Assembly: GCA_026416455.1 (NCBI GenBank)
Contig: JAOAFE010000002.1
Location: forward strand, 88,212-152,211
Reading direction: 5' to 3'
Source: Syntrophales bacterium
GTDB taxonomy: Bacteria; Desulfobacterota; Syntrophia; Syntrophales; UBA8958
DNA: 64,000 nucleotides
Shown here: positions 7,493 through 59,656 of the stretch, piece after piece
How the letters are laid out: each line of letters opens with the position of its first letter
Position numbering within the stretch: the first letter of the stretch is position 1
Notes under the pieces: generated by a model
Databases searched by the model: none
Told to the model about the DNA's origin: nothing
What the model saw: only the letters and a program-made list of their open reading frames with translations
Program-made: the position numbers and the translations under genes

Positions 7493-7502
7493 TTCCTTTC
7501 CC

Positions 7503-8516
7503 CTAACGGTTGGTAATTTCAATGAGCCTTTCCAGTTTTTTTCTGGCTTTCCCGCTATCAATGGAATCCCTTGCGATGGAAATTCCTTCTTCTATTCTCT
7601 TTGCCTTTCCTGCCGCTACGATAGCTAGAGCCGCGTTCAATAAGACAATATCCCTTTTTGCTCCTTGCTCTCGACCATCTAGGATGGCCTGCGTGATCTC
7701 TGCATTCTCCTGCGCTGATCCTCCTATCAGAGAGTCAGGGGGATAGGTTTGCCCAAAGTAGTCGACGGGATCTAAATTAAAGGTGGTGATTAGTCCATCT
7801 CTCAGCTCCGTAACCCTCGTTTCGCAAGTTACCGTTGCTTCATCCAGGCCATCCAGACCGTGCACTATAAAGGCGCGTTTGGTTCCCAGCTCTTTGAGGA
7901 CGGAAGCAAACATTTCGGTCAGCTTTCCGTCGTAAACCCCGATGAGTTGGTTGGTGGCGCCAGCCGGGTTGGTCAAGGGCCCCAACATATTAAAAATCGT
8001 TCTAATTCCGATTTCCCGACGGGGTCCGATGGCGTGTTTCATGGCGCCATGAAGTAGAGGGGCAAATAGAAAACCAATGCCTTCTTCGACGATGGCCTCC
8101 TCCACGACCTCTGGACCCGCGTTAATGTTTACTCCAAGGGCTTCGAGAAGGTCCGCACTGCCACATCCACTGGAGACTGCTCGGTTGCCATGTTTGGCTA
8201 CGGTGATCCCGGCCGCTGCTACCACGAACGCACAGGTCGTAGAGATGTTGAAAGTTCCCTTTCCATCTCCGCCTGTGCCACAGGTGTCAACTATTACGGA
8301 AGCCCTTGCATCTATACGGGTTGCTTTTCTCCGCATGACGCGCGCCGCACCTGTGATTTCTCCTACCGTTTCCCCCTTCATTCTAAGTGCGGTGATAAAG
8401 GCCCCGATCTGGGCAGGTGTAGCCTCTCCCTCCATTATTATTTCCATTATGTGCATCATTTCTTCTTCACGAAGATCGAGCCCGCTTACTAGCTTGGCAA
8501 TACCCTCCTTAATCAT
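7503..8516 (-). CDS. trpD: anthranilate phosphoribosyltransferase
   Basis: 337 aa, full length. Transfers phosphoribose from PRPP to anthranilate. Seen: the PRPP-binding [14 protein letters not shown] loop near 80-93, [21 protein letters not shown] anthranilate/metal region, and [35 protein letters not shown]. It sits three bases after trpG and is a free-standing protein, not a TrpGD fusion. Confidence 0.97.
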
Positions 8517-8519
8517 TTT

Positions 8520-9101
8520 CTAACCTCCTTTCGTGCAGTAGTATTCTAAGAAGTTTTTAAGAATCCGTTTACCTGACGGTGTAAGAACTGACTCGGGGTG
8601 AAATTGCACTCCTTCCACAGGTGAAGTGCGGTGGCGCAGTCCCATGATTTCACCCTCCGCTGTCTCAGCGCTAATTTCTAAACAATCGGGTAGTGATTTA
8701 CGATCTACGAGCAAGGAATGGTAACGGCCAGCGGTGAAGGGGTTTCCCACACCACGGTAAATGGTGCGCCCATCGTTTATAATAGATGAAGTTTTCCCAT
8801 GCATGATTCGTTCGGCCCGGATTATGCGCCCACCAAACGCATAACCGATCGCTTGGTGTCCTAGGCAGACACCTAAGATAGGTACACGAGAATGAAGTGT
8901 TTTTATGGTCTCGACGCTTATTCCCGCATGTTCCGGTGAGCGGGGACCGGGAGAAATAACAATTCCCAGAGGCTTTAGAGCCTCTATTTCCTTTGCCGTT
9001 ATAGAATCGTTGCGGAAAACCCTCAGTTCAGCACCGAGCTGCCATAGATATTGGACAAGGTTATACGTGAAAGAATCGTAATTATCTATTACTACGATCA
9101 T
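8520..9101 (-). CDS. trpG: anthranilate synthase glutamine amidotransferase component
   Basis: 193 aa class I glutamine amidotransferase supplying ammonia to TrpE. Seen: [10 protein letters not shown] at the start, [11 protein letters not shown] oxyanion strand, nucleophile Cys79 in GVCLGHQ, and the His/Glu of GVQFHPES near the end. In many bacteria this subunit is shared with PabB for folate synthesis; no pabB is nearby. It follows trpE by 11 bases. Confidence 0.96.
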
Positions 9102-9112
9102 ATTTCCCCCTT

Positions 9113-10597
9113 TTAAATTTTGAATCCTGCCTTAACAAGGCGGACGGCCTGCATCATGCCTTGTGCCTTATTTAAAGTTTCTTCATACTCGGACTGTGGA
9201 TCCGAGTCTGCTACAATGCCTGCACCGGCTTGTAGAAAAAGGCGTCCCCTTTGTTTGACGAGGGTACGGATTGTGATACAAAAGTCCATGTTGCCTGTGT
9301 AGCTGAAATAACCGACTGCACCTCCATAAATATTTCTTCTCGTCGGCTCTAGTTCGTCTATGATTTCCATGGCCCTAATTTTAGGTGCACCCGTCAGTGT
9401 ACCAGCAGGGAAGCAAGAGGCTAAGACGTCAAAACAGTCTTTGTCTGGCGCGACCTGGGCTTGGACGAGAGAGACAAGGTGCATCACATGAGAATACCTT
9501 TCCACCGTCATGAACTGATTGACCTGAACGCTGCCCTTACGGGCGATTCTTCCTAAATCGTTTCTTCCCAAATCGACGAGCATTACATGTTCGGCTCGCT
9601 CTTTCGGATCTTGAAGGAGTTCATCAGCGAGTTTCCTGTCCTCTTGTTCGGTTCGCCCCCTTTTCTTAGTTCCTGCGATTGGCTTCACTTCGGCCAGACC
9701 CTCTTCCATGCGAACAAGGACTTCGGGAGAAGAGCCGATTAAGTGGAGATCGTCTATTTTCAGGAAAAAAAGATAGGGGGAGGGGTTGATGAAACGTAAT
9801 GCCCGATATAGGTCCACGGGTGAGACGTTTTCGTGAATTTCGAATCGTTGGGAGAGGACAACTTGAATGATGTCACCAGCGAAAATGTACTCCTTGGCGC
9901 GGCGCACAATATCTTTGAATGCTTCGGGTGATAGGTTGGAAGAGTATCTAATTTCCTTTTCCTCTGGGCTAGCCTCGAAGGTAGGAAATTCACAAGGGTT
10001 GAGCAGAGAGATTTCTTGTTCTATTCGATCTACCGTCTCATCGTAAAGGGTATCCAAGTCTGTTTTTTCGTCTATATGGGCGCAGGCTAAAACTTTTACC
10101 GTATGGCGTATATTATCGAAAATGAAGAGGGTATCAGTCAAAAGGAATACGGCTTCATCCGTGGGGAGATCGTTTAAGGTATTATCCGGCAGATGTTCGA
10201 AGTAACGCACCATGTCGTAGCTAAAAAAGCCTACTGCCCCGCCGAAAAATCGAGGCAGCCCAGGAGTTTTGACGGGTTTAGACGATAAGATCTCGCGACG
10301 GAGGAAGTCGAGAGGTTTCCCATCGTGGGGGATGACAGACACCCCTTGGGCATTCTCAACAATACCGTTTTCCTTTTGAATACGAATGATTTTTTTTGGT
10401 TTTGAACCGAGGAACGTGTAGCGCCCCCATTTTTCTCCCCCTTCTACACTTTCCAAGAGAAACACCTGTCGTTCCCGCGCTATTTTAAGAAGGAGGGATA
10501 CGGGAGTTTCGGTGTCGGCGATAATTTCCCGGAAAACGGGTACTAAGGTACCCTGTTTTGCTAATTCTTTAAAGGTTTTGCGATCGGGGTGATACAT
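9113..10597 (-). CDS. trpE: anthranilate synthase component I
   Basis: 494 aa. Converts chorismate and ammonia to anthranilate, the first committed step to tryptophan. The N-terminal regulatory part contains LLES at 47-50, the motif of Trp-feedback-inhibited enzymes, so allosteric control is probably kept in addition to attenuation. The C-terminal chorismate-binding domain shows [61 protein letters not shown] and GAVGY. GAGGAGG lies four bases before the ATG, directly downstream of the attenuator hairpins. Confidence 0.97.
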
Positions 10598-10626
10598 GAA
10601 ACCTCCTCGTTTTGTATTTTCCAGCT

Positions 10627-10660
10627 AATAAAAAAGGCCGTGAGTTTCTCTCACGGCCTT
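10627..10660 (-). terminator. trp attenuator terminator hairpin
   Basis: On the minus strand a perfect 11-bp stem AAGGCCGTGAG / CTCACGGCCTT with a 5-base loop is followed by a run of T (TTTTTTATTA), a textbook intrinsic terminator, 30 bases before trpE. Its 5' arm is also perfectly complementary to the 3' arm of the preceding hairpin, so it can be pre-empted by an antiterminator. Confidence 0.9.
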
Positions 10661-10669
10661 GAAAGCATA

Positions 10670-10706
10670 AAGGCCGTGAGGACCACCGGGAGGTCCCCAC
10701 GGCCTT
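10670..10706 (-). promoter_or_regulatory. trp leader hairpin / antiterminator arm
   Basis: 15-bp stem (one G-U wobble) with a 7-base loop, between the leader peptide stop and the terminator hairpin. Its 3' arm in RNA ends CUCACGGCCUU and can pair instead with AAGGCCGUGAG of the terminator (11 bp, 9-base loop). Part of its 5' arm and loop (GACCTCCC) is complementary to GGGAGGTC in codons 20-22 of the leader peptide, giving a ribosome-dependent switch. The pairings are read directly; the switching order is inferred. Confidence 0.8.
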
Positions 10707-10719
10707 AATTTCTATTTTT

Positions 10720-10803
10720 TTATCCGATGCGGTGGATAGACCTCCCCTTTATGTTCCAGGTCCACCACCAGCTCACATTATTGATCTTCACCCGATAATC
10801 CAT
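10720..10803 (-). CDS. trpL: trp operon leader peptide
   Basis: 27-codon reading frame on the minus strand, ATG at 10803, stop TAA at 10720-10722, with AAAGGTG upstream. Tryptophan codons occupy positions 12, 13, 14 and 16 (W-W-W-T-W). It lies between a good promoter and two alternative hairpins in front of trpE, which is the arrangement of ribosome-mediated trp attenuation. Scarce charged tRNA-Trp should stall the ribosome and favour read-through. Confidence 0.92.
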   Translation of the reverse strand: MDYRVKINNVSWWWTWNIKGRSIHRIG

Positions 10804-10831
10804 GCAGGTTTCACCTTTCGATGTTAATCTA

Positions 10832-10860
10832 TTAATAGCGCAAGGGTTTACCTTTGTCAA
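10832..10860 (-). promoter_or_regulatory. promoter of the trp leader and trpEGDCF
   Basis: Minus strand TTGACA (10860-10855), 17-base spacer, TATTAA (10837-10832), about 30 bases before the trpL start. The -35 box overlaps the tyrA stop codon (TGT-TGA-CA), so the trp genes have their own promoter inside the aro-trp supercluster. Confidence 0.8.
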
Positions 10861-11639
10861 CAAGCTTTTTTATCTTTGCTTAATCTCCTGAGGGCGCTTG
10901 AAATGTCGCTGGTGTTTTTTTGTTCTACCATTTTCATAAAGTCCTCTAGATGTTGTTTATAGGTCGCAAGGATAGATGGCAAATGGGGATTTAGACCGAT
11001 AATATCTCCTAAAAGCACAGGGTCTTGAGAGATTAATCGCTGGAGGAGCTCCAGTTTGGTGCGGAAAACAGGGGTAGAATAGGGCCATAGTTCTTTTATG
11101 TTTAAACCGGCCTCTTTGATGGTGAGACCCAGAAGTATCGTATTGAGATGATTCATCCCCTGCACGATCGCCATGATCATGTCGTGCCTTTCGGGCGTGG
11201 TCTCAATCACGCTGGCGCCGGCGTGGATGAAAACGCGGCGAAGCCATGGGAGCCATTTCTCACCTCGGGCAGGGCACAGAACTACATTTTGCCCCTTAAT
11301 ATTAGGCACGTCCGGCCCAAAAAGAGGATGAACACCGATAACCTCTGCCTTACTGAACGCCAGCATGGTCTGAACCGGTTGGGTCTTCAAGGAAGTCAAG
11401 TCCATAAGGAGGCTTTCGGTGCCCACGTAAGGCCCCACCTGTTTGATGACCTCGCATGTGATGCCAATGGGTACGCTCACGATGACGACAGATGATTTTT
11501 CTGCCAATTCTTCCAATTTTAGGGTTGTATCTAGATCGTAGATAAGAACCTCATATCCTTCTTGGGTAAAAAAGTGGTTAAACCAGCTCCCCATGGCTCC
11601 TTTTCCACCAATGATACCTATTATCGGTCTAGGCATCAT
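10857..11639 (-). CDS. tyrA: prephenate dehydrogenase family protein
   Basis: 260 aa NAD(P)-dependent dehydrogenase making 4-hydroxyphenylpyruvate from prephenate for tyrosine. Seen: Rossmann motif GGKGAMG at 11-17, VSVPI, LMDLTSLKT, and GVHPLFGPD around 102-110, the signature of TyrA. It has neither a fused chorismate mutase nor a C-terminal ACT domain, so Tyr feedback through an ACT domain is absent. It overlaps the aroC stop and ends inside the -35 box of the trp promoter. The alternative arogenate specificity cannot be excluded. Confidence 0.87.
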   Translation of the reverse strand: MMPRPIIGIIGGKGAMGSWFNHFFTQEGYEVLIYDLDTTLKLEELAEKSSVVIVSVPIGITCEVIKQVGPYVGTESLLMDLTSLKTQPVQTMLAFSKAEVIGVHPLFGPDVPNIKGQNVVLCPARGEKWLPWLRRVFIHAGASVIETTPERHDMIMAIVQGMNHLNTILLGLTIKEAGLNIKELWPYSTPVFRTKLELLQRLISQDPVLLGDIIGLNPHLPSILATYKQHLEDFMKMVEQKNTSDISSALRRLSKDKKAC

Positions 11640-12685
11640 TTCAGCGCCTCATGGCGAAGGAGATGATCGGCTATGACTATATTTACCATTGCTTTACATA
11701 CGGGGACAATGCGGGGGATGGCACACACGTCATGTCGTCCTTCTATGGTAACAATCCTCTGGCGACCGTGGGTGTCTATCGTCTGCTGGGGTTGAGAAAT
11801 AGATGGGATGGGCTTGACAGCTACCCGAACGACGATTTCCTGTCCCGTCGAAATACCGGCCAGAATGCCACCGGCATGGTTACTAAGAAAACCGTGAGGT
11901 GTAATGGGGTCATTATTTTCCGACCCTTTGAGCCTTGCGGCCTGGAAACCTGCTCCTATTTCCACTCCCTTGACGGTGCCTATACTCATGAGAGCATAGG
12001 CTATTTCCGCATCGAGCTTATCGAACACCGGCTCTCCCAGTCCGGCTGGGCAACCAATTACTCTAATCTCAACAATACCCCCAATGGAATCCCCCTCTTT
12101 TCTTGCCTTCTCGAGACAGGAGGCCATGCTCTCCGATGCTGCCACATCAGGGCAGAAAAAGGGATCTTCTTCGACCCTGGTGAGGTCTATTGCACTTACC
12201 TCGATCCCTCCCAATTCCCTCGTGAAGGCGACGACTTTGATCCCTGCTCGGGCCGTCACTTTGGAGGCCACCACACCGGCAGCGACCCGCGCGGCCGTTT
12301 CTCGACCGGACGCCCTGCCTCCTCCTCGATAATCACGAATGCCGAACTTTTTCTCGTATGTGAAGTCGCCGTGTCCCGGACGGTAGATGTCTCTCAATTG
12401 ACTATAATCACTACTTTTTGCGTCTCGATTCCAGATAAGGAGGGAAATGGGGGTTCCCAACGTTTTCCCTTCGAAGACGCCGGAGAGAATTTCCACTCGG
12501 TCTTCCTCTTTTCTTGGAGAGGAGAGGGCCTCTCCAGGTCGGCGACGCCTAAGCTCTTCTTCTATTTCTTCCTCCGTCAGAGTTATTGAAGGCGGACATC
12601 CGTCTATTACAGCCCCAATGGCTCTTCCGTGCGACTCTCCCCAGGTGGTCACACGAAAGAGTTTTCCTATGGTATTACCGGCCAT
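11636..12685 (-). CDS. aroC: chorismate synthase
   Basis: 349 aa FMN-dependent enzyme making chorismate from EPSP. Seen: TTWGESHG near 13-20, RPGHGDFTYEKKFGIRDYRGGGRASGRETAARVAAG (FMN/phosphate region), and the terminal GRHDVCAIPRIVPVCKAM block. Overlaps the patatin gene before it by 11 bases and tyrA after it by 4, so it is translated within the operon. A long antisense reading frame here is a shadow. Confidence 0.98.
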   Translation of the reverse strand: MAGNTIGKLFRVTTWGESHGRAIGAVIDGCPPSITLTEEEIEEELRRRRPGEALSSPRKEEDRVEILSGVFEGKTLGTPISLLIWNRDAKSSDYSQLRDIYRPGHGDFTYEKKFGIRDYRGGGRASGRETAARVAAGVVASKVTARAGIKVVAFTRELGGIEVSAIDLTRVEEDPFFCPDVAASESMASCLEKARKEGDSIGGIVEIRVIGCPAGLGEPVFDKLDAEIAYALMSIGTVKGVEIGAGFQAARLKGSENNDPITPHGFLSNHAGGILAGISTGQEIVVRVAVKPIPSISQPQQTIDTHGRQRIVTIEGRHDVCAIPRIVPVCKAMVNIVIADHLLRHEALK

Positions 12686-13619
12686 GAGCTTGACCTCCTA
12701 ATTGCTTTAGATTGTAAATAAGAGAAGCCCAAAGGGACATTTTCTTCTTTATTTGCGGTATGCTCTCTCGAGCCGCCTTTTCTCCCTCCCCTATGAGGTC
12801 CAGGGCACGGGAGAAGTTAATCCAATGTAAATCTTTCACGTTGGGACGGATGATGACGTCCGCCTGTTCGAGCTCATGTTTTTCCACGATACGGCACGTA
12901 ATTTCTGCGGCTTGATAAAAGATATCCTTGGCCGTTTTGAACTCTTCGTGAATAGGTAAAGAGCGATCCACAGGTACGGCAATCACCAAATCTGCTCCTT
13001 CTTTCCTTGCTGTCTCCACAGGAACGGGGCTCACGATGCCTCCGTCCGACAGCAGCTGGCCCTCGTAAGGAATGGGTTCGATCGCTCCCGGTACAGCGCT
13101 ACTGGCCAGGACGGCTGTTCTCAAGGGTCCCGATGAGAAGATAACCGGTTCTCCAGAGGTGAGATTGGTGGCTACGGCCCGAAAAGGAATCGGACAGTCT
13201 TCGATATTAATGTCTGGAATAAAATATTCGATGATGGTCTTCAGTTGATCGGCCGAGAGTATAGAGGGACGAAGTAACATCTGGATGAGGAAAATTTGGC
13301 TTTTCAAGAACGATCGTATCTTCCGGAAGAAATTTTCGTCTTCGCCGGCCAAAGCGGACTCCACGGATTTTAAGGCGGAAGACTGAAATTCACGGCTGCT
13401 GATCAAATTTTCAACTTTTTCCCCTATCCTTTCTGGAGAAGTACCGCTGGCATAGGCACCACCTACGAGGGCGCCAATGCTGGTACCGACGATAACGTGG
13501 ATGGGGATGTTTTCCTCTTCTAAGACCTTTAGTACCCCAATGTGACTCACCCCCCGCGCCCCACCTCCTCCCAGGGCCAGGCCAATTTTTTTCTTAAAAA
13601 AATTACGCCCCATCCTCAC
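12675..13619 (-). CDS. patatin-like phospholipase (RssA/YchK type)
   Basis: 314 aa serine acyl hydrolase with the Ser-Asp dyad of patatins: oxyanion loop GGGGARG at 17-23, nucleophile Ser47 in GTSIG, and Asp192 in DGG. Bacterial RssA-like proteins are thought to cleave lipid esters, with unknown physiological role. It lies inside the shikimate operon, joined to aroK by a GTGA overlap and to aroC by 11 bases, so it must be co-expressed with chorismate synthesis although no metabolic link is obvious. The start is GTG at 13619 or ATG at 13613. Confidence 0.9.
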   Translation of the reverse strand: MRMGRNFFKKKIGLALGGGGARGVSHIGVLKVLEEENIPIHVIVGTSIGALVGGAYASGTSPERIGEKVENLISSREFQSSALKSVESALAGEDENFFRKIRSFLKSQIFLIQMLLRPSILSADQLKTIIEYFIPDINIEDCPIPFRAVATNLTSGEPVIFSSGPLRTAVLASSAVPGAIEPIPYEGQLLSDGGIVSPVPVETARKEGADLVIAVPVDRSLPIHEEFKTAKDIFYQAAEITCRIVEKHELEQADVIIRPNVKDLHWINFSRALDLIGEGEKAARESIPQIKKKMSLWASLIYNLKQLGGQAHGR

Positions 13620-14149
13620 TGGTTGCCCCCCGTTGGATGTTTGATATGAAAGATAATGTCATTAACCACCTCTTCGGGCCCTTTCCCCTCCGTACTTATG
13701 ACCACATTCGCTATCTGCTGATAATAAGGTTCCCTTAATATTAGCAGATCACCGGTTTCCTCAACCAGATCTCGATCCGTCAGAGAAGGGCGTACATCTT
13801 TCGTCTTGTCGTCGAGAGTTAATCTTTCGAGAATGGTATTTAATCCTGCCGTAAGCCAGACGAAGAAGCCTTTGTCTTGTAGCCTTCTTACGTTTTCCGG
13901 ATCTAGAATTGCCCCCCCTCCTAGGGCGATGACGCAATTATCGTGCAGGGAAAGAAGCCCGATGACGTTTTTTTCCAATTGGCGGAAAGTAAACCATCCC
14001 TCGGTCGCGACAATATCCCGAATGGTTTTCCCCGTTTCTTCTTGAATGAAGGTGTCGGTGTCAAAGAAAGGAAGTCTCAGGCTTTGGGCGAGGAGCCGCC
14101 CTACTGTTGTTTTCCCAGTACCGCGAAAGCCGATGAGGATTATATTCAT
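13616..14149 (-). CDS. aroK: shikimate kinase
   Basis: 177 aa P-loop kinase phosphorylating shikimate. Seen: GFRGTGKTT at 7-15, FDTDTFIQEETG with the Mg/shikimate aspartates, FRQLEKN, ALGGGAI substrate loop, and RPSLTD lid arginine. The start at 14149 overlaps the aroA stop as ATGA; the longer frame up to 14257 lies inside aroA and has no conserved residues. Confidence 0.95.
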   Translation of the reverse strand: MNIILIGFRGTGKTTVGRLLAQSLRLPFFDTDTFIQEETGKTIRDIVATEGWFTFRQLEKNVIGLLSLHDNCVIALGGGAILDPENVRRLQDKGFFVWLTAGLNTILERLTLDDKTKDVRPSLTDRDLVEETGDLLILREPYYQQIANVVISTEGKGPEEVVNDIIFHIKHPTGGNQ

Positions 14150-15423
14150 ATTTGTCCTGTCCTCAAGGATCCGAATTTTTCCCAGAAATCGGGAAAAGAT
14201 TTGGCTACACATTCGCTGTCTTTTATTACAATGCCCGGAATTAAGAGACCGAGACAAGCAAAGCTCATGGCCAGACGATGGTCTTGGTATGTTTCTATTT
14301 CTCCCCCATGGATATTTCCTCCGGAGATGATGAGTCCATCATCTATTTCTTTCACCTTGACCCCAATTTTATTTAATTCCGTGGCCAAAGCATGAAGACG
14401 ATCACTTTCTTTGTACCTTAAGTGAGCTACGTCTACGATAGTGGTGGTTCCCTCACGAGCGGCAGCGAGCATGGCCAACGTGGGGACCATGTCCGGAATA
14501 TCTCCCAACGGAAATGTGAAGTCGCCTTTTGCTAGAGGCCGTCCTATCACTTCAATGCCCTGGTCATCCCTTACGACACTCACACCCATTTGCTCCATTA
14601 TATCGAGGAGGCGGAGATCACCCTGCCGACTATGGATATTGATGTTTCTTACCCGTACTCGTCCTTTTGTGAGGGCCGCCGCCAAGAAAAAGTAGGAAGC
14701 GGAGGAGGCATCTCCTTCGACCCAATAATGGGTTGCGCGGTAATTATGGCCCGGTCTGATCCGATAGCGACTTGGCGCTTCGGACTCTACTTGTACCCCA
14801 AAGGCTTTCATAATCTCGCAAGTCATTTCAATATAGGGGTAAGAGGGTATCCTTCCTTGGAGCTCAAGTTCGAGGCCTTCAGGCATGCAAGGGGCGGCGA
14901 TCAAGAGCGCCGATACATACTGACTACTTTCGATTTCATGTAGGACTACTTTCCCCCCTTTTATACCGGAAGCAAAAATTTCGACAGGGGGTGTACCTAG
15001 CTGACCGTGGCAGGTTACCCTAACTCCTATGGTCTGCATAGCTTGGATGAGCGGGCCAATGGGTCGCTCACACAGCCTCGAATCACCAGTTAAGAAAAAC
15101 TTTCCCGTCCCGAGGGCGCAAAAAGTGGTCAGAAGGCGAAGCCCAGTGCCGTTGTTACCTAAATAAATGGGTTTTTCCGGGGCGAGAGGCCCTCTTCCCA
15201 GTCCCCGGACCCTGAGATGGTCACCGTCTTTTTGGAGTATAACCCCTAAGGAGCTCAGAGCCTCCATGAGAAGGTAGGTGTCTTCCGAGAAAAGGGGTTG
15301 ATAGAGAACACTTTCTCCTTCAGCCAAGGAGGCGATGACCAAGGCACGTTGAGTAAAGCTTTTGGACCCCGGTACCGTGACCTCCGCCTGTAAGTTTGAA
15401 AGAGGGGAGATTTCACGCCTCAT
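14146..15423 (-). CDS. aroA: 3-phosphoshikimate 1-carboxyvinyltransferase (EPSP synthase)
   Basis: 425 aa. Joins PEP to shikimate-3-phosphate. Seen: VPGSKSFTQRAL near 17-28, YLGNNGTGLRLL (family GNAGTxxR, here with Asn for Ala), ESSQYVSALLIAAP, and YKESDRLHALATEL near the C terminus. The family usually has LGNAGTAMR; the NNGTGLR form resembles class variants and could change glyphosate response, but this was not tested. Overlaps aroE by 11 bases and aroK by 4. Confidence 0.96.
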   Translation of the reverse strand: MRREISPLSNLQAEVTVPGSKSFTQRALVIASLAEGESVLYQPLFSEDTYLLMEALSSLGVILQKDGDHLRVRGLGRGPLAPEKPIYLGNNGTGLRLLTTFCALGTGKFFLTGDSRLCERPIGPLIQAMQTIGVRVTCHGQLGTPPVEIFASGIKGGKVVLHEIESSQYVSALLIAAPCMPEGLELELQGRIPSYPYIEMTCEIMKAFGVQVESEAPSRYRIRPGHNYRATHYWVEGDASSASYFFLAAALTKGRVRVRNINIHSRQGDLRLLDIMEQMGVSVVRDDQGIEVIGRPLAKGDFTFPLGDIPDMVPTLAMLAAAREGTTTIVDVAHLRYKESDRLHALATELNKIGVKVKEIDDGLIISGGNIHGGEIETYQDHRLAMSFACLGLLIPGIVIKDSECVAKSFPDFWEKFGSLRTGQI

Positions 15424-16231
15424 CTTTCAAAGCCTCCATTACCGCTTGATGCATGACCTCTATGGGGGGTTCCAGTCCTGTCCAGAGGCGAAACTGTTCC
15501 GCTCCCTGATAAATGAACATGTCGACTCCACTTAGGGTTTTAAGACCAGCATGGTGAGCCAGCCGGATCAGTTTCGTCTCTACGGGATGATAGATAATAT
15601 CGACAACCAAGTTAAACCGGGAGAGATGTGAAGCGTCGACAGGCGTCTCGTCCGTGTGGGGATACATACCGACGGGAGTAGTATTCACTATCATGTCTCC
15701 CTCTATTGTATCTTTTTGTTCCCACGAGGCAAAAGAACAAGAAAATTCTTGGGCTAATTTCTCTCCCTTCTCTCTTGTCCGGTTTAGGATGGTAACCTGC
15801 GCGCCCTGGGTAACTAAAGCGTAAACTATCGCCCGCGCAGCCCCTCCGGCCCCTAAAACGATTACCTTTTTTCCTTTTGGGTTTTCAACCCTCCTCAAGG
15901 CACGCATAAATCCCTGACTATCCGTATTGAATCCCACTAGCTGTCCTTCTTGATTAAGGATGGTATTTGCGGCTCCGATGCGCCTTACATTTTCGTCGAT
16001 GTTGTCTAAATAAGGAATAACCGCTTCTTTAAAAGGAATCGTTACCGATACTCCCGAGATACCAAGACTTCGGATCCCTTTAATTGCTCCTGCCAGGTCA
16101 GAGACAAGGAAGGCGTGATAGCAAGCATGAAAATGTATGGCTTCGAAGGCGGCCCGATGCATGACAGGCGATAGGCTGTGAGAGACAGGATTTCCGATGA
16201 GACAGAATAGCTTTTCCTGTGTTTTCTTCAT
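15413..16231 (-). CDS. aroE: shikimate dehydrogenase
   Basis: 272 aa NADPH-dependent reduction of 3-dehydroshikimate. Seen: GNPVSHSLSPVMHRAAF near 13-29 (shikimate site), VTIPFKEAVIPYLD with catalytic Lys, GAANTI, GFNTDSQGF with catalytic Asp, GAGGAARAI Rossmann loop and NRTREKGEKLA. ATGA overlap with aroD. Confidence 0.96.
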   Translation of the reverse strand: MKKTQEKLFCLIGNPVSHSLSPVMHRAAFEAIHFHACYHAFLVSDLAGAIKGIRSLGISGVSVTIPFKEAVIPYLDNIDENVRRIGAANTILNQEGQLVGFNTDSQGFMRALRRVENPKGKKVIVLGAGGAARAIVYALVTQGAQVTILNRTREKGEKLAQEFSCSFASWEQKDTIEGDMIVNTTPVGMYPHTDETPVDASHLSRFNLVVDIIYHPVETKLIRLAHHAGLKTLSGVDMFIYQGAEQFRLWTGLEPPIEVMHQAVMEALKDEA

Positions 16232-16902
16232 CTCAGTATTCTCCTGATGTCCTCAAATTCATCTATTGTCAACTGTCCAGGTGCGGTCTCACAGTCCGCT
16301 GCTGGGGAGACGTAAGTCAAATTTGAACCGATGAAACCAGCCAAGAGTCGAGATGGTTTCCCCAACCGCCCCATGGCAAAGGAAATGATCTCCTTCCCTT
16401 GCCGCCGGGCATAAGGTATGAGATTGAGGACGGGAAGATTGTCTTCGTAGCTACATGCAGTAGTGACAATTTTAATTAAATCAGGATGATAGTTTGCCAT
16501 CCGATGAAAACGTTTTTTTAGGCTGTAGAGGGAAGGTGTGCCGTTCACATCATGCCAGGAAAGGATTATACGGGTCTTATCTTTTATTCTACTGGGCAAT
16601 ACCTTTTTCAGGTAGGTCTCGGGTGTTTCTACCTCAAGGTCAAGGTAATCTGCCCCTCTCTCAGCCGCTTCCAAGAGGATATTAATTCGGTCTTCTTCCT
16701 TTCCCTGGTAGAATCCTCCTTCTTCTCTCCGGCGGTTGGTTGCAATGACAGGTCCCGGTTTCTCCCTAAAGAGGGAGTTTAGGTTCAGTTCTGACAGGAT
16801 ATCGAGGCGAATTTCTACGAGGTCAACTCGGTTGGCAAAATATTCCCAGCTCTGCCTTACCTCATCAACCGTCTTAAATCCTAAGGACAGACATATTTTC
16901 AT
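16228..16902 (-). CDS. aroD: type I 3-dehydroquinate dehydratase
   Basis: 224 aa class I enzyme forming a Schiff base with 3-dehydroquinate. Seen: VEIRLDILSE near 25-34, ILSWHDVNGTP with the catalytic His, KIVTTACSYEDN with the Schiff-base Lys, and AMGRLGKPSR...TYVSPA. The start is put at the ATG at 16902, overlapping the pheA stop (ATGA) and preceded by AGGAGAAG; residues upstream in frame are not conserved. Confidence 0.94.
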   Translation of the reverse strand: MKICLSLGFKTVDEVRQSWEYFANRVDLVEIRLDILSELNLNSLFREKPGPVIATNRRREEGGFYQGKEEDRINILLEAAERGADYLDLEVETPETYLKKVLPSRIKDKTRIILSWHDVNGTPSLYSLKKRFHRMANYHPDLIKIVTTACSYEDNLPVLNLIPYARRQGKEIISFAMGRLGKPSRLLAGFIGSNLTYVSPAADCETAPGQLTIDEFEDIRRILR

Positions 16903-17978
16903 GACTCTTCTCCTGAAGGATAAGACCCTAGGTGCTTGACAAAAGAGGTCATAGATCTGATTTCTGAAAGACATGTACGGGCGGGTTCTTCTTCCGAGTG
17001 GCCAAGGAAGTCTACAAAGAAAACATACTCCCACAGGCGGTCCCGGATCGGATAAGAAGCGATGCGTGTTAAATTAATTTCCCGGTGGGCAAAAGGAGCT
17101 AGCGCTCGGTGAAGGGAGCCGGGGATGTGGGGGGTACCAAAGATGATACTCGTTTTGTCTCGTCCCGAGGGGGGATTGGTGCCGTAACCGACAACAAGAA
17201 AGCGCGTCGTGTTCATGGGATGGTCTTCTATTCCCTCTGCTGCCACCTGTAAGCCATTTCTTTCGGCAGCCATGGATGTGCAAATGGCCCCAGCATCTTT
17301 CTGTCTTGCTGCCATCACTGCCGCTTCCGAAGTGCTAATTATTTCATGCCATACCGCATGGGGGAGGTTTTTTTTGAGCCATTCCTGACATTGAGCCAAA
17401 GCCTGGGGATGAGAAAAGATGTGCTTAATTTTTTTTAACTCCCCTTCTTTTGAATATAAATTATGTGAAATGCGTAAGAAAATTTCCGCCCGAATGGAAA
17501 GGGAGGTAGTGATGAGCCGATCCAACGTGGGCTTCACTGGTCCTTCCATAGAATTTTCTATCGGTACAACTCCCCAGGCCGCCTTTCCCTTTTCCACGGT
17601 ATTGAATACCTCGCCAATTGAGGTCACGGGAAGATAGGAGGTACTCTTACCGAAGTGGTTAAGGGCGGCCAGATGGGAAAAGGAGGCCTCCGGCCCTAGG
17701 AAAGTAACCGTTATGGGCGATTGGAGCGAACGGGCGGCAGAGATGATTTCTTTATATATTCCCTTCAGGCTCTCATGGCTTAGGGGTCCCCGATTAAGGG
17801 ATATAAGACGTTCGTAAACCTTTGCCTCCTGCGCAGGGTCGTAAATTTCTTTGCCCATTTTTCTTTTGCTTTCGCCAATTAAACGAGCTACTTCCGCTCT
17901 CTCATTAAGCAAGGAAACAATCTTCTCATCGAGGGAGAACAGTTTCGCTCTTAGTTGTTCAAGCCCCTTGTCTTTCAT
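16899..17978 (-). CDS. pheA: chorismate mutase / prephenate dehydratase (P-protein)
   Basis: 359 aa, three domains: AroQ-type chorismate mutase (about 1-88), prephenate dehydratase (about 90-270, with VPIENSMEG and the catalytic TTRF at 257-260) and a C-terminal ACT domain (about 274-355). Makes phenylpyruvate from chorismate. The two ACT motifs known to bind Phe in P-proteins, GALV and ESRP, read GSLH (287-290) and ASYP (307-310) here, so Phe feedback may be weakened or changed. ATGA overlaps both with aroB and aroD. Confidence 0.96.
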   Translation of the reverse strand: MKDKGLEQLRAKLFSLDEKIVSLLNERAEVARLIGESKRKMGKEIYDPAQEAKVYERLISLNRGPLSHESLKGIYKEIISAARSLQSPITVTFLGPEASFSHLAALNHFGKSTSYLPVTSIGEVFNTVEKGKAAWGVVPIENSMEGPVKPTLDRLITTSLSIRAEIFLRISHNLYSKEGELKKIKHIFSHPQALAQCQEWLKKNLPHAVWHEIISTSEAAVMAARQKDAGAICTSMAAERNGLQVAAEGIEDHPMNTTRFLVVGYGTNPPSGRDKTSIIFGTPHIPGSLHRALAPFAHREINLTRIASYPIRDRLWEYVFFVDFLGHSEEEPARTCLSEIRSMTSFVKHLGSYPSGEES

Positions 17979-19069
17979 GTTATCAATGTTTCCAGGATAT
18001 TCTTGATTAATTCATCTTCTACCTGCGCGCGTAAGAATGGCAGTCCTATATCTTTAAGGAGAACGAAGTTTATCTGCCCCTTTGCTTTTTTCTTGTCCGT
18101 TTGGATACCCGTTAAAATAGATTCGTAAGTCAGACCGGGAGGTAACCGACGAGGTAAATCAAAGTCTGCCAGGAGTTGCTCAATTCGATGACAGACTTGA
18201 GTATCAAGGTATCCCATCGCTTCCGATAAACGAGACTCAGCTAATATACCTATGGAAACGGCGTGACCATGGGGGTATCGGTAGTTGGAGGCTCGCTCAA
18301 TGGCATGGCCAATTGTGTGACCGAAATTGAGAACCTTTCTTATACCGGCTTCACACTCGTCTAGTTCGACAATATTTTTCTTTATACGACAAGACTCGCC
18401 GATCGCGTAGTCCAGCACCTCTGCCTTCCGACTTAAGATCTCCTCTCTTTTTTCTTCCAAGAATTGGAATAGTCCACGACTTTCTATCAGCCCGTACTTT
18501 ACGATCTCCGCGAGACCGTTTTTGAATTCCTCATCGGGCAGAGTAGAAAGGAAAAACGTATCTATAAAGACAGCCCTCGGTTGGTGGAAGGTACCGATGA
18601 GGTTTTTCCCTTCTTTTATGTCGACCCCGGTCTTACCTCCAATGCTACTGTCCACCTGCGCCAGGAGGGTGGTGGGTACTTGCAGGTAAGCAATGCCTCG
18701 CATGAAGATGGAGGCAAGAAAACCTGCCATATCACCTACTACCCCACCACCGAGAGCGATAAGACAGGAACCTCGATCGCACCCGAGTCCAATGAGTTTT
18801 TCCGCCAATCCGATTAAGATGTTTATGTTCTTTGATTTTTCTCCCGCTGGGAAAGATAAAATTTCTACCGGTATACCCGCTTTTGACAAATGAGAAACGA
18901 ATTCCTTTCCGTGTAATTCGTAAACCGTTTCATCGGTGATGACGACGTAGCGGTCCCCCCACTTATGTCGAGCCAGAAGAGGTGGCATGCGGTCTAAGAT
19001 ATGGTGGCCTATGTATATATCATAAGATTTATTTACCCTTTTTCTCAAATCTACACTGATTTGCTTCAT
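17975..19069 (-). CDS. aroB: 3-dehydroquinate synthase
   Basis: 364 aa NAD- and metal-dependent cyclase converting DAHP to 3-dehydroquinate. Seen: ALGGGVVGDMAGFLASIFMRGI around 104-125 (NAD/substrate), PTTLLAQVDSSIGGKTGVD, GLAEIVKYGLI with metal Glu, LNFGHTIGHAIE and YPHGHAVSIG with metal His. It is full length and starts four bases inside the end of aroF. Confidence 0.97.
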   Translation of the reverse strand: MKQISVDLRKRVNKSYDIYIGHHILDRMPPLLARHKWGDRYVVITDETVYELHGKEFVSHLSKAGIPVEILSFPAGEKSKNINILIGLAEKLIGLGCDRGSCLIALGGGVVGDMAGFLASIFMRGIAYLQVPTTLLAQVDSSIGGKTGVDIKEGKNLIGTFHQPRAVFIDTFFLSTLPDEEFKNGLAEIVKYGLIESRGLFQFLEEKREEILSRKAEVLDYAIGESCRIKKNIVELDECEAGIRKVLNFGHTIGHAIERASNYRYPHGHAVSIGILAESRLSEAMGYLDTQVCHRIEQLLADFDLPRRLPPGLTYESILTGIQTDKKKAKGQINFVLLKDIGLPFLRAQVEDELIKNILETLIT

Positions 19070-20094
19070 CTTTTTCCCTCGATGTGCATCTCCATAAAAT
19101 TATTTAGTTTTGTAACCTCTTCCATCAGCTGGTAGAATTTCTCAGGTTTCAGCGATTGAGGTCCATCGGAGAAGGCCTTTTCCGGCTCTGGGTGTACTTC
19201 GATCATTACTCCGTGGGCTCCGACGGCGCGAGAAGCTAGGGTAAGAGGTCGGACGTATTGCCAATATCCAGCCGCGTGGCTGGGGTCTACGATGATGGGT
19301 AGATGGGTTAATTCTTTCAGAACGACGACGGCGCTAATGTCGAGAGTATTTCTCGTTGCCGTCTCGAAAGTTCTTATTCCCCTTTCACATAGAATGACCT
19401 GGCTGTTACCGGATGACAAGATGTATTCAGCCGACATGAGAAGTTCCTCTATGGTAGTCATCATGCCCCTCTTGAGAAGGACGGGCTTTTCTTTTTGCCC
19501 CACCTTCTTAAGTAAGGGGAAATTTTGTACATTGCGGGCTCCGATTTGTAGGATGTCGGCATAAGCGGCCACAAGGTCAACATCCTGAGGATTCATCACT
19601 TCCGTGATGACGGGAAGTCCCATCTTTTCACCGACTTTTTTGAGGATTTTGAGACCCTCTTCTTCCATGCCCTGAAAACTGTAAGGGGATGTTCTCGGTT
19701 TGAAGGCCCCCCCGCGCAGCACATGGGCACCTGATTTTTTGATAACGAATCCGCATTCCATGAGTTGTTCCTCACTTTCAATGGAGCAGGGACCGGCCAT
19801 GACGACAAAATGCCCGGGTCCAATCTTTACTCCGTTCACTTCGATTACCGTATCTCCCTCGTGTGACTCCCGGCTGGCAAGTTTATACGGTTTGAGAATG
19901 GGGATAACCTTTTCCACCCCGGGGAGATATTGAGCCCCCTGAAGCTGGGCTTTGCCTCTTTCGTCTCCAATGGCGCCGATAATGGTTCTTTCCACTCCCC
20001 GCGAAGGATGGGCACGGTATCCAACCGATTCGATCCACTCTATTACTCGTTGGATATCCTCTTCTGTGGCCGATTTTTTCATTACGATAACCAT
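19066..20094 (-). CDS. aroF: 3-deoxy-7-phosphoheptulonate synthase (type I-beta)
   Basis: 342 aa DAHP synthase, the entry step of the shikimate pathway. An N-terminal ferredoxin-like domain (about 1-70, VIVMKKSATEEDI...) precedes the barrel; in this subfamily it mediates feedback by Tyr or Phe. Barrel motifs seen: AGPCSIES, GGAFKPRTSPYSFQG, QIGARNVQNF, LLKRGM, ERGIRTFE and VDPSHAAGYW metal/phosphate residues. The ATG at 20094 has GGAGG seven bases upstream. First structural gene behind the aromatic leader peptide. Confidence 0.97.
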   Translation of the reverse strand: MVIVMKKSATEEDIQRVIEWIESVGYRAHPSRGVERTIIGAIGDERGKAQLQGAQYLPGVEKVIPILKPYKLASRESHEGDTVIEVNGVKIGPGHFVVMAGPCSIESEEQLMECGFVIKKSGAHVLRGGAFKPRTSPYSFQGMEEEGLKILKKVGEKMGLPVITEVMNPQDVDLVAAYADILQIGARNVQNFPLLKKVGQKEKPVLLKRGMMTTIEELLMSAEYILSSGNSQVILCERGIRTFETATRNTLDISAVVVLKELTHLPIIVDPSHAAGYWQYVRPLTLASRAVGAHGVMIEVHPEPEKAFSDGPQSLKPEKFYQLMEEVTKLNNFMEMHIEGKR

Positions 20095-53381: not shown

Positions 53382-53904
53382 AAGAAAGGCAGCAGTTTTA
53401 ATAATCGACTTGCAGGAGAGTCTCTTAAATGTCATGGCAGGAAAAGAAGATCTGCTGAAAAATATTGTCAAACTGGTAAAAGGGGCCCAGATACTAAATC
53501 TACCGTTGGTACTAACGGAACAAGTCAAACTAGGGCGCACCCATCAGGAGATTAGCTCTCTTTTTTCAGGATTTGAAGCCCTCGTGAAAGAAAGCTTCAG
53601 TTGTTGGAAAGAAGAGAAGTTCCGACAAGCAATTCTCCAATTGGGACGCAAGGAGATCATCGTAGCCGGAATAGAAGCCCATATCTGCGTCTATCAGACA
53701 GCGGTCGATATGGTTCGAGAGGGTTTCAGTGTTTTCGTCGCGGCGGATTGCACCTCTTCTCGGACGGAATTAAACAGGGAAATCGCCCTCAGACGTCTTG
53801 CGATGGAAGGAGTTCACTTGACTAGCGCCGAGATGGTTCTTTTTGAACTCCTAGAGACGGCGGGAGATCCTAAGGCGAAGGAGATCTTCCGCGTGGTGAA
53901 GTAA
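53371..53904 (+). CDS. isochorismatase-like cysteine hydrolase
   Basis: 177 aa. Catalytic triad seen as Asp13 (IIDLQ), Lys73 (VKESFSCW) and Cys106 ([11 protein letters not shown]). This subfamily (YcaC/nicotinamidase-like) hydrolyses amides or ureido compounds; substrate unknown. Starts 11 bases inside uvrB; its end overlaps the convergent peroxiredoxin-like gene by 35 bases. Confidence 0.88.
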
Positions 53905-54481
53905 CCTTTTCCAGTCCCCTTACGATCACCTCTAAGTCGGGGCGCTTGTTGATATCGGATACGTGAAAGAAGCGGATCACACCTTTTTTATCGATAATGA
54001 TTATAGCCCTTTCTGCCATACCGTCAGAGCGTAATATACCGTAGCGGCGAGCCACTTGGCCATGAGGATAAAAATCGGAGAGGACGGGAAACCATAAGCC
54101 TCCCATTTCCTTTAACCAGGCGTAGAGGGTAGGTATATTGTCGACACTGATGCCGATAAGAATTGCTTCGTATTCGTCAAACATGTCTTTTACGATGTTG
54201 TAGCCCGGCCATTGTTCAGAGCAGACGGGTGTCCAGGCGGCGGGAATGAAAGAAAGAACTACATTTTTCTTTCCTTGAAAGTCCTTTAACGATACGTGGC
54301 CTCCGTTGACAGCAGGTAAGGTAAAATTAGGTGCCCGTTGCCCAACTTTGAGATGGGTGTTACTGTCGCGGGGTTTTAATTTTTGAGGTGTATAGACCTT
54401 GTCCGAGAATTTGTCCGAAAGACCCCACGAAGGATGGGTCAGGAGAAAAGAAAGAGCAAGGATGATTAAAATTTTTTTCAT
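53870..54481 (-). CDS. exported peroxiredoxin-like (AhpC/TSA) protein
   Basis: 203 aa. Signal peptide (about 1-20), then a thioredoxin fold with GQRAPNFTLPAVNGGHVSLKDFQGKKNVVLSF and the peroxidatic Cys87 in TPVCSEQ (family TPVCTxE). No clear resolving cysteine, so 1-Cys type. A periplasmic peroxidase or reductase is likely. It follows a second exported thioredoxin-fold gene by 10 bases, downstream of formate dehydrogenase. Confidence 0.85.
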   Translation of the reverse strand: MKKILIILALSFLLTHPSWGLSDKFSDKVYTPQKLKPRDSNTHLKVGQRAPNFTLPAVNGGHVSLKDFQGKKNVVLSFIPAAWTPVCSEQWPGYNIVKDMFDEYEAILIGISVDNIPTLYAWLKEMGGLWFPVLSDFYPHGQVARRYGILRSDGMAERAIIIIDKKGVIRFFHVSDINKRPDLEVIVRGLEKVTSPRGRSPSP

Positions 54482-54491
54482 ATCTTTTTCC

Positions 54492-55076
54492 TCATTTCAT
54501 GTCTGCTAATTTGACTATTTCGGTCAGGAAATTATCAGCCCGATTAATCATGCCCAAGCGGCTGAGAATCACCCGGTGGGATCCATCTTTTTGAATTTTG
54601 ACCCCGATAAAATACGGGGTGCGTACTTCACCGAGGATTTTGTGTATCCTGAAATCGGGATCGGCAAGGAGGGGAAAAGGGATGCCGTACTTTTTCTTAA
54701 AAGTGGCTGCTTCGAATTCCGAGTTGCCGGCACCAATTCCTATTATCTTGACCTTCCCCTTCAATGCTTGGTTGCCTTCAATGAGCTTATATAACTCGTT
54801 CACATGGGGAGCATCCGCCTGGCAGTAAGAGCAGTACATGCTAAATACCTGAAGGATAACAAGCTCTGCCTTCAGTTCTGGGATGCGAAAACTACGGTTC
54901 AAAAAAGTCAGGCCCAAATAACTTCTATCACCGCTCTCTTTTGGAGCGGGTAAGGTAAAATCCGGCAGTTTATCTCCGACAGCGGGAGGACCAGCCCATC
55001 CCGTTTGAAAGAGGCAAAAAATCAGAATTGTGAAGATGAGACTTAACCCTAATGCCCGCTTTTTCCCCTTACCCAT
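54492..55076 (-). CDS. exported TlpA/thioredoxin-like protein
   Basis: 194 aa. Signal peptide or anchor (about 8-28), GDKLPDFTLPAP, then a redox CSYC at 82-85 (FSMYCSYCQADAP). Resembles TlpA/ResA-type reductases. The start at 55076 has GGGGGAG six bases upstream; a frame reaching 55241 runs into the formate dehydrogenase gamma gene. Could keep cysteines of the periplasmic formate dehydrogenase reduced, which is only inference from position. Confidence 0.82.
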   Translation of the reverse strand: MGKGKKRALGLSLIFTILIFCLFQTGWAGPPAVGDKLPDFTLPAPKESGDRSYLGLTFLNRSFRIPELKAELVILQVFSMYCSYCQADAPHVNELYKLIEGNQALKGKVKIIGIGAGNSEFEAATFKKKYGIPFPLLADPDFRIHKILGEVRTPYFIGVKIQKDGSHRVILSRLGMINRADNFLTEIVKLADMK

Positions 55077-55094
55077 CTCTTTGCTCCCCCGTTC

Positions 55095-55128
55095 AAAATT
55101 AAGAGGGCCTACTTTTTTCAGTAGGCCC
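55095..55128 (-). terminator. hairpin between fdn gamma and the TlpA-like gene
   Basis: Perfect 8-bp stem GGGCCTAC / GTAGGCCC with an 8-base loop (55105-55128), followed on the minus strand by TCTTAATTTT. The T-run is poor, so it may only partly terminate or may protect the transcript end. Confidence 0.5.
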
Positions 55129-55162
55129 CTAAGATAGCTTGATTTCCAACCTTTGTCCAGTG

Positions 55163-55840
55163 TCAATGATGTGAGGTTGACCCTTTCTCTTCTTCGCCAA
55201 AGACAACTAATTCGCCCTTTTCTTCCATTTCTTTCAGCCATTTACCATGCTGTTTTTTGAGCCAGGCCCTCGTTACCCAACCGGTCGTCATGGCGGAAAG
55301 TGAACCCGGAGACCCAATCGTCCCCAGGTACAGGTGAACGAAGAAAAACGGAAAAATAACGGCAAAGCCAAGGGCGTGAAGCATGTACATGAGGCGCACT
55401 AAACCAGGCGGGAAGAGGAGGGGAAACCACATGATCAATCCTGTGACAACCATGAGACTGCCGAAAATGGCAACGGCAAGGAAAAACATTTTCTGCCCCG
55501 GATTGTACTTTCCCACTTCCGGCACTTTATCTACATGCCAGAGGTAACCACCGGCTACCTTTATCCATTCCAAATCTTCGGGCATGGAGAAGACGCCCGC
55601 TTCTTTCCACCACATGCGAATGGCAAAGTAGAGGGAAACTAAAAACCATAGACCGGTAAAATTATGGACGTATTTAAGAGACTTGAGGCCTCCCATCAGC
55701 GTTCCGATGAAATTGAAAGAGTGAAACATCATACCCAGGCCCGTAATGCACAGAATGAGGCAGGAAATGGCCAAATTCCAATGAACGATTCTTTCAAAAG
55801 CGTCTGTGGCTTTGATCAGACCCTTTTTCATGTCATTCAC
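55163..55840 (-). CDS. fdnI: formate dehydrogenase gamma subunit (cytochrome b556)
   Basis: 225 aa with four membrane helices. Heme-b histidines are likely among His20 (IVHWN), His60 (YVHNFTG), and the pair in MLHALGF and FVHLYLG. Passes electrons from the periplasmic beta subunit to quinone on the cytoplasmic side, as in FdnI. Overlaps the beta gene by 8 bases. Confidence 0.93.
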   Translation of the reverse strand: MNDMKKGLIKATDAFERIVHWNLAISCLILCITGLGMMFHSFNFIGTLMGGLKSLKYVHNFTGLWFLVSLYFAIRMWWKEAGVFSMPEDLEWIKVAGGYLWHVDKVPEVGKYNPGQKMFFLAVAIFGSLMVVTGLIMWFPLLFPPGLVRLMYMLHALGFAVIFPFFFVHLYLGTIGSPGSLSAMTTGWVTRAWLKKQHGKWLKEMEEKGELVVFGEEEKGSTSHH

Positions 55841-56621
55841 CTCCTTTCCCCACCTTGTCGTTGTTTTCGTCGGGTAGCTTGGGACCGTGGATTATGTAAT
55901 GGAGCAAGGAGCCAGCGATGACGCCACCGGCAGCAATGAGGCTCAAGGGTTTGAGAATATCTTTCCAAATTACGATCGTAGCTGGTACGGACGGTTTTGA
56001 AGGCAAACCGTAAACCCGAGGTTTTTCTTCCAAAACGTAGACGACGTGTGTTCCTCCGACGAATTTGTCGCCATACACGCTCGCCTCACCTCCTAATTCT
56101 TTTGCCCTGGCATGGGCTTTCTTAAGCATTACCTGTTTTTCACCAAAAGTAACGGCTCCCGTTGGACATGCCTTGGCACAAGCTGGAATTAGGTCTGCCT
56201 TGATGCGAGAGTAACACAGGTCACACTTGTAGATTTTATCCGTTGCTTTATCGTACCTTGGTATATCGAAGGGGCAAGCGGAAATGCACTCTTTACAACC
56301 GATGCATTTTTCCGTGTTGACAGCGACGGTACCCACATCAGTATGGTACAGGGCCCCACTGGGACATACTTTTACGCACGCGGCGTCCGTACAGTGCATG
56401 CAACCGTCTTTTCTAAAAATCCACTTTACCCGATCTTTATCCGCTATTTCGCTAAAGCGGATGAGCGTCCAGGTGTTGGCCTGAAGATCCGGGGGGTTTT
56501 GATATGTGCCGTAATTAACGGTCTGTTTGGCAGGGAGTCCATTCCACTGTTTGCATGCCAGCTGACAACCCCGGCATCCCGTACATTTGGATACATCAAT
56601 GAGTTTGATATATTCCGTCAT
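55833..56621 (-). CDS. fdnH: formate dehydrogenase beta subunit (4x[4Fe-4S])
   Basis: 262 aa ferredoxin-like subunit with four cysteine clusters: CTGCRGCQLACKQWN, CMHCTDAACVKVCPSGA, CIGCKECISACPFDIPRY, and CDLCYSRI...ACAKACPTGA. A C-terminal membrane helix (about 222-245) anchors it as in FdnH. Wires the Mo/W site of the alpha subunit to cytochrome b. Sixteen bases after the alpha stop. Confidence 0.96.
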   Translation of the reverse strand: MTEYIKLIDVSKCTGCRGCQLACKQWNGLPAKQTVNYGTYQNPPDLQANTWTLIRFSEIADKDRVKWIFRKDGCMHCTDAACVKVCPSGALYHTDVGTVAVNTEKCIGCKECISACPFDIPRYDKATDKIYKCDLCYSRIKADLIPACAKACPTGAVTFGEKQVMLKKAHARAKELGGEASVYGDKFVGGTHVVYVLEEKPRVYGLPSKPSVPATIVIWKDILKPLSLIAAGGVIAGSLLHYIIHGPKLPDENNDKVGKGGE

Positions 56622-56637
56622 GGTTTATCTCACCCCC

Positions 56638-59600
56638 TTACTTTTTTATGACATTGACCATGAACGCCTTGGACTCGGGTATCATGGTGTTGGGATCGCC
56701 GATAAATGGAGTTAATAGATTCGCCGCGTCGCCTTCTGTGAAGATTTCCGGTTTTTTGTCTCCGGGGTAGTATTTCCGGTTTTTGGACGTAATCCAACCG
56801 AAGTGCCAGGGGATACCTACCTGGTGGATGATCTTACCATCAATATTTAGAGGCTTGAGGCGCGGTGTTACGATGGCAGTAGCTTCCACTTCTCCCCGGG
56901 CGGATTTGACGACGACTTTATCTCCATTAGAGATGCCCTTCTCTCTGGCAAGCTCTATACTAATTTCACAGAACATACCGGGCTGCATTTCGGCCAGCCA
57001 CGGGCACCACCTCGTTAATACGCCTGTCTGCCAGTGTTCGCTCACACGGTAGGTGGAACACACGAAGGGGAACCGTGGATCGCACGCATCAACACTGGCA
57101 AAGGCATCGAGATCGGAGCCGACCCCCGCTTTGTCGAAGCGTTTAATGACCGGATTGTGTTTCTGGGGAGATAGGATGTTCTTGTCCACAGGACATTCCA
57201 AGGGTTCGTAATGTTCTGGGAACGGACCATCCGCCAAACCGGGTCCGAAGAGACTGGCCACACCATCCGGCTTCATGATGAATGGGGGGCGGCCGGAGCC
57301 GGGATCGCCGACTCCATCTGGGACGTCACCAATCCATTTTTCACCATTCCAGATGATGACCGGAGTCTTCTTGTTCCAAGGCTCTCCTTTTAGGTCTACG
57401 GAGGCACCGTTGTAGAGGATGCGACGGTTGACAGGCCAGCACCACGCCCACTCAGAGTAAAGACCGATGCCGGAGGCGTCTTTGTTTATCCGCCTCATAG
57501 CCAGAATGCCTTTTTCTGATACGGAACCGCAGTATATCCAACAACCGGAAGAAGTAGAGCCATCGTCTTGGAGCCACGCGAAGGCAGGCACCAAATCGCC
57601 CTTCTTGAATTCTCTGAACTCTCCCTTCTTAAAGGGATTTTCCACTTTTTTATCTTCCAAGAAGTAGCCGTTTATTTCCGCGGCAACCATTCTCGGGTCG
57701 TAATGGAAGTGGCCAGTTAGAGTCTTCTTGCCGTAAGGCCAAGTTAATTTCGTGATTGCTTCTTTGTGGGGACCACCTTCCTTTTCGTAGAGTTCTTTGA
57801 CCCGGAAGAAAAGCTCACTCATAATATCTCCGTCCGGTTTAGCTTCTCCCGGCGGATCGATAGCCTTATACCGCCACTGTTGCCAGCGGCCACTGTTGGC
57901 TATGCTTCCCTCTTTCTCGATGGAAGAGGCGCAAGGAAGTAAGAATACTTCCGTTTTTATTTTAGTGGGATCCATACCAGGGCCTCGCCAGAAGGAACCT
58001 GTTTCATTGTCGAAGAGATTTACGTTCACGAGCCAATCGAGCTTTGTTAGGGCTTGACGTACCTTGTTTGAATGGGCACCGCTGCAGGCCGGGTTCATAC
58101 CCCAGGCAAAGAAGCCGGTGAATTTACCTTTGTACATTTGATCGAAAATCATGAGCCAGGAGTAATTAGCCCCGTCATCGAGTTTGGGCATGAGCTGGTA
58201 GGCTTCTTCCAGACTTACGTTGGTGCCGTACATGGCCCGCAAGAAGCTAGCCGAATATTTAGGAAAGTTTTTCCACCAGTTTAGACTTTTTTCTTCCTTC
58301 GTTTGCGGTGTTCTCTTTTCGTTAAAGTCCTTTAAGGTTTTCATTGAGGCCGTAGGCGCCCCTAAGTAGCCCGGCCAGATGTGAAAGAGGAGGCCATGGT
58401 CGGTTGAGCCCTGAACGTTAGATTCTCCTCTCATGGCCGCAATGCCACCTCCGGCAATTCCAATATTGCCTAAAAGCAGCTGAATGATAGCCATGGCCCT
58501 TACCGTCTGGGTGCCAGTTGTGTGCTGCGTCCAGCCCATAGCGTAGAGCTCGACTCCCGCCTTATCTGGACGACCCGTGGAGGCATAAAGCTTATAGATT
58601 TCTTCCAGTTTATCCTTGGGAGTGCCGGTAATCCGGGAGACGATGTCTAAGGTGTAACGGCCGTACTGCTTTTTCAGCAACTGGAACACGCAGTTGGGGT
58701 CCTGCAAGGTTGGATCTTTCTTAATGACCCCTTTCGCATCCGTTTGGTAGGACCACGTCTCTTTGTTGTACTTATTTCCTTACGTATTCTTCAAAGTAGA
58801 GATTGTTATCGAGGATGTATTTTATCATCCCACCCAAAAAGGCGATGTCCGTACCGGGACGGATAGGGGCATAGATATGAGCTCTCGCTGCCGATTGCGT
58901 AAAGCGGGGATCGACACAGATGATTTTAGCTCCCTTTTTGTCCACCGCTTCTTGAATCCATTTGAAGGCCACGGGATGGTTGGAGGCAGGGTTACTGCCC
59001 ATGATAAGAAACACGTCACTGTTCTTAAAATCAATCCAGTGATTGGTCATTGCGCCGCGTCCGAACGACTCTGCCAGAGCCGGTACAGTCGGGCTGTGTC
59101 AGATCCGGGCCTGGTGTTCTATGTATACCAGGCCCAATCCTCTCAAGAATTTTTGATAGGTAAAACATTCCTCCAAGTCGAGAGCAGCACTGCCCACGGA
59201 GGCGATGCCTTCTGTTCGATTGACGATTTCACCCTTTTCGTTGGTCGCGCGGAAGCTGGCATCCCGGCTTTTCTTTATGAGGTGCGCGATTTTGTCGAGA
59301 GCCCAATCCCAATCCACTTCTTTCCACTCCGTTGCGTATGGAGCTCGGTACAGGGGTTTGGTCAATCGGTTTTCGTTTACGGCTATTTGGTAAATGGATC
59401 CGCCCTTGCTACAGAGGGCACCACGATTGATGGGACTGTCGGGATCACCTTCCGTGTTTACCACCTTACCACGTCGAGTGGATACAATGATGCTGCATCC
59501 CACCGAGCAGTATGGACAGATCGTCGTCGTTTCCTTAGCATATTGGATCTTTAAGGGCTGGGCGTAAGCGGAGATAGGCTTCAAGCTCAAACCGATACCG

Positions 59601-59656
59601 CTACCCGCCAAGGCTGCCCCCGAGATCTTCAGGAAACCTCGCCTCGTGACATCCAT
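56638..59656 (-). CDS. fdnG: formate dehydrogenase alpha subunit: selenocysteine gene, broken by a frameshift
   Basis: Mo- or W-bis-MGD formate dehydrogenase. Tat signal RRGFLKISGAA at 5-15 (ATG at 59656, GGAG 11 bases upstream), first [4Fe-4S] CPYCSVGC...CSKG. In-frame TGA at 59099-59101 (codon 186) stands in RI-U-HSPTV, the selenocysteine site of FdnG, and the frame goes on through GRGAMTNHW. Near 58775 it ends at EEYVRK-stop; homology resumes in another frame (YNKETWSYQTD) and runs to 56638. About 30 residues normally between are missing. If real, no full protein is made; an assembly error is possible. Confidence 0.9.
58770..58785 (-). other. frameshift/deletion junction in fdnG
   Basis: Minus strand reads GAA-GAA-TAC-GTA-AGG-AAA-TAA in the upstream frame, while the downstream part needs AAG-TAC-AAC-AAA, shifted by one. 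FdnG proteins have about 30 residues here (the stretch ending in xTGYDxxKRKYDK) that are absent. A loss of about 80-95 bases, not a multiple of three, explains both. Confidence 0.75.
59067..59101 (-). promoter_or_regulatory. selenocysteine TGA with SECIS-like hairpin
   Basis: TGA at 59101-59099, then eight bases, then GACTGTACC - GGCTCT - GGCAGAGTC: two 9-base arms with seven pairs and two mismatches closing a loop that resembles the GGUCU loop of bacterial SECIS elements. Position matches bacterial selenocysteine insertion signals within coding sequence. Confidence 0.8.

Follow-up and report, generated by a model that had tools for sequence, protein, structure and literature searches.

The closest described counterparts of the locus analyzed here are the alpha subunits of the FdnG type (TIGR01553), represented by E. 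coli FdnG (1KQF) and D. vulgaris FdhA (6SDR). The window, a DNA stretch of 64,000 nucleotides, is located in a contig of 245,704 nt from a Syntrophales MAG (2.1 Mb in 44 contigs, 95.8% complete, 0.4% contaminated) and carries an ordinary formate dehydrogenase-N (FDH-N) operon in the order alpha-beta-gamma, predicted to be Tat-exported and selenocysteine (Sec)-dependent. The locus shares with the FdnG type the Tat signal, the 4Fe-4S motif, the Sec codon with a SECIS-like hairpin and the beta and gamma genes downstream, and both parts of its alpha gene match the family in order, end to end. In contrast to FdnG, the alpha gene of the window lacks 28 residues and is out of frame.

The 5′ part of fdnG (58772..59656, minus strand) starts with the ATG at 59656 (MDVTRRGFLK), where a twin-arginine signal was recognized by inspection. 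It contains the [4Fe-4S] Cys motif and a TGA (59099..59101, minus strand) read as Sec at residue 186, the position of Sec in most orthologues, and ends after 294 codons at TAA 58774-58772. The hairpin 3′ of this TGA (59046..59104, minus strand) matches the full Rfam model SECIS_3 with 36.2 bits (E 3.4e-6), which does not reach the gathering score of 63; the genome also encodes selB and tRNA-Sec. The 3′ part (56638..58773, minus strand) lies in a different frame and is otherwise intact, with 712 residues read from 58776 to 56641 and a stop at 56640-56638. The two parts correspond to TIGR01553 positions 1-301 and 330-1009 in the same order, in agreement with the match of both parts to FdnG noted in the sequence-only reading, and the 3′ part exceeds the TIGR01553 cut-off by itself. 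The family profile is therefore matched along its length in two parts, whereas the single open frame of about 1,000 residues with Sec that is expected for an FDH-N alpha gene is interrupted by the TAA and the frame shift.

The genes for the beta (iron-sulfur) subunit (55833..56621, minus strand; TIGR01582 with E 5e-82, below the curated cut-off) and the gamma (cytochrome b) subunit (55163..55840, minus strand; TIGR01583 above cut-off) had been described as intact, which is borne out by these profile matches and by the conserved operon order. The fdnG of the sister genome L034/G001 (JAKPCH010000024.1) is located in the same operon and shows 85-86% protein identity across both parts of the window gene, but its frame is intact and encodes 1,033 residues. 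Genes for exported TlpA-like and peroxiredoxin-like proteins are found 3′ of the FDH-N operon (53870-55241) and follow in the same order in the sister genome.

The junction of the deletion was placed at 58773..58775 (minus strand). The anchor codons flanking the site are 1 nt apart in the window, compared to 84 nt in close and 81-90 nt in distant orthologues, as counted where both flanks align. Nearly all Syntrophales orthologues have exactly 28 codons (84 nt) at this site; the comparison set consisted of genomes of the family and order and includes no congener. Thus 83 nt (28 codons minus one base) are missing and the frame is shifted, 83 nt being a net figure, as the junction bases could stem from either side and the endpoints are not placed exactly. 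This confirms the broken frame near 58775 proposed earlier and sets the size of the loss, given as about 30 codons, to 28. The lost residues are TIGR01553 positions 302-329 and include Y, T, F, G and G, which are invariant in 32 orthologues. The missing stretch was not found elsewhere in the 2.1-Mb draft genome. One further sequence (L056) begins downstream of the site and has no alignable flanks there. Two others (L059 and L061) at first seemed to lack them as well, and both were found to be deleted elsewhere in fdnG. The alpha gene as assembled is a null allele, because the deletion takes away the segment typical of FdnG and moves the reading frame so that it runs into the TAA.

The lost stretch had been regarded as always present in the family. 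Among FdnG/TIGR01553 orthologues this is true, but the Mo/W formate dehydrogenases in the broader sense do not all have it. The genome itself encodes an intact, Sec-containing, NuoG-like cytosolic FdhA (TIGR01591; contig C41, 43020-45032), which belongs to the same catalytic superfamily and, unlike FdnG, naturally lacks the stretch, as seen from a gap in the alignment. FdhF-type enzymes lack it as well, and in the TIGR01591 profile only about four positions lie between the two anchors.

Apart from the deletion, fdnG is free of decay. Within 28 close sequences, 2 of the 427 otherwise invariant columns were changed in the two parts of the window alpha, compared to 0-9 in the 27 orthologues. No second stop or frame shift was found in the gene. 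Decay of a pseudogene would be expected to leave several lesions or lost conserved residues, and here there is one lesion only. As the gene is otherwise constrained, the cells either do not have this lesion at all or acquired it very recently. Such a single clean lesion means an artefact of assembly or strain mixture, or a very recent deletion. The constraint test leaves both of the causes named in the sequence-only reading, very recent mutation and mis-assembly, and the deletions described below for other MAGs lend credibility to the latter.

The alpha orthologues listed from 155 genomes of the order were nearly all open. The exceptions were the window, one gene with 46 nt deleted (G023/L021), one with an in-frame TAG (G109) and genes cut by contig ends. 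The 46-nt deletion of L021, around 1190-1198, breaks the frame about 20 codons past the Sec codon. In L059 (JAFDAR010000105.1, 52-2941) three deletions of 109, 38 and 41 nt were found, and in L061 (JAFDAS010000142.1, 2-2462) two of 40 and 85 nt. The three genes thus resemble that of the window in having deletions of 38-109 nt in an otherwise well-kept gene with intact neighbours, but the positions differ and L061 and L059 have two and three deletions per gene, respectively. L059 and L061 are two MAGs from one sample series; in both, the genes for beta and gamma and the one that follows them are intact, and the alpha gene shows no point decay. Several clean deletions of this kind point to assembly and would make natural decay unlikely. 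The arrangement seen in the window was common to no relative among the orthologues compared. The gene with the in-frame TAG (L097 in G109) has no Sec TGA in frame, and its TAG follows after about 394 codons at a position that is Lys/Arg-like in relatives.

An artefact of assembly or strain mixture is slightly favoured as the explanation of the fdnG deletion; the cells would then keep an intact fdnG. The single lesion, the 2 changed columns of 427, the intact beta and gamma genes and the deletions in three other MAGs slightly favour this explanation. Spurious frameshift pseudogenes are a common assembly product in isolate and RefSeq assemblies and depend on coverage and assembler (Cooley and Wright, 2024, PMC11017572). 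On the other hand, the assembly is of good quality, the lesion is located mid-contig and fdnG was the only gene with a frame split relative to the sister genome among the 37 genes compared at ≥50% identity or the 69 at ≥35%, in about 464 kb of the genome sampled as stretches. In addition, ten large window genes have full-length profile matches, so that the genome is not generally error-ridden. Two further apparent splits in this comparison were antisense shadow ORFs of the fdnG locus and were discarded. A collapse at unusually conserved cross-species DNA was rejected as well, since the window site lies at the 51st conservation percentile and the deleted stretches range from the 9th to the 88th.

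The isolated lesion, its mid-contig position and the quality of the MAG would fit a real, very recent deletion, with a probability somewhat below even. In that case fdnG would have become a pseudogene only recently, and the organism would lack the membrane formate dehydrogenase but retain the cytosolic activity. The second, still intact Sec-dependent formate dehydrogenase is consistent with this, and two sister genomes of the same family (G003 and G006, 97% complete) gave no match to the alpha query at E 1e-60, which suggests that the enzyme is dispensable there. However, the lack of other decay in the operon would require the deletion to be very recent, and the comparable losses in fdnG of other MAGs look like technical errors. 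That the gene still works, with a +1 frameshift at AAA-UAA-G or downstream reinitiation giving an enzyme without the 28-residue segment like the shorter FdhA, is very improbable. The remainder of fdnG is under constraint and the cytosolic FdhA lacks the corresponding segment, but the examined orthologues keep it with its five strictly invariant residues and no relative shares the arrangement. Furthermore, the 3′ part has no in-frame ATG before residue 80, and the Shine-Dalgarno-like TAAGGA is not located a few bases upstream of the putative shift codon but overlaps with it. A real and tolerated deletion, in which a +1 shift specifically at the AAA-UAA junction would yield a shorter FDH-N alpha devoid of the segment specific to FdnG, has hardly any probability.

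The broken fdnG is a correct but ordinary observation. No further FDH-N alpha gene was found in the genome assembly, and the lesion therefore bears on whether the organism has a working membrane formate dehydrogenase, as had been proposed. Formate metabolism as a whole is not decided by it, since the genome also has the cytosolic FdhA with Sec as well as selB and tRNA-Sec. A real deletion would remove the membrane enzyme but leave the Sec-dependent cytosolic one, a narrower consequence than previously stated. FdhE was not detected in the genome. The outcome decides the membrane formate dehydrogenase annotation of the organism and is relevant to modelling syntrophic electron transfer. As fdnG in MAGs can bear short, spurious-looking deletions, absence or pseudogene calls need read support.

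Elsewhere in the window, trpA and trpB are absent beside an extended series of genes for aromatic amino acids at 6052-20094, which comprises trpF, C, D, G and E, followed by aro genes, pheA and tyrA (names assigned partly by inspection).
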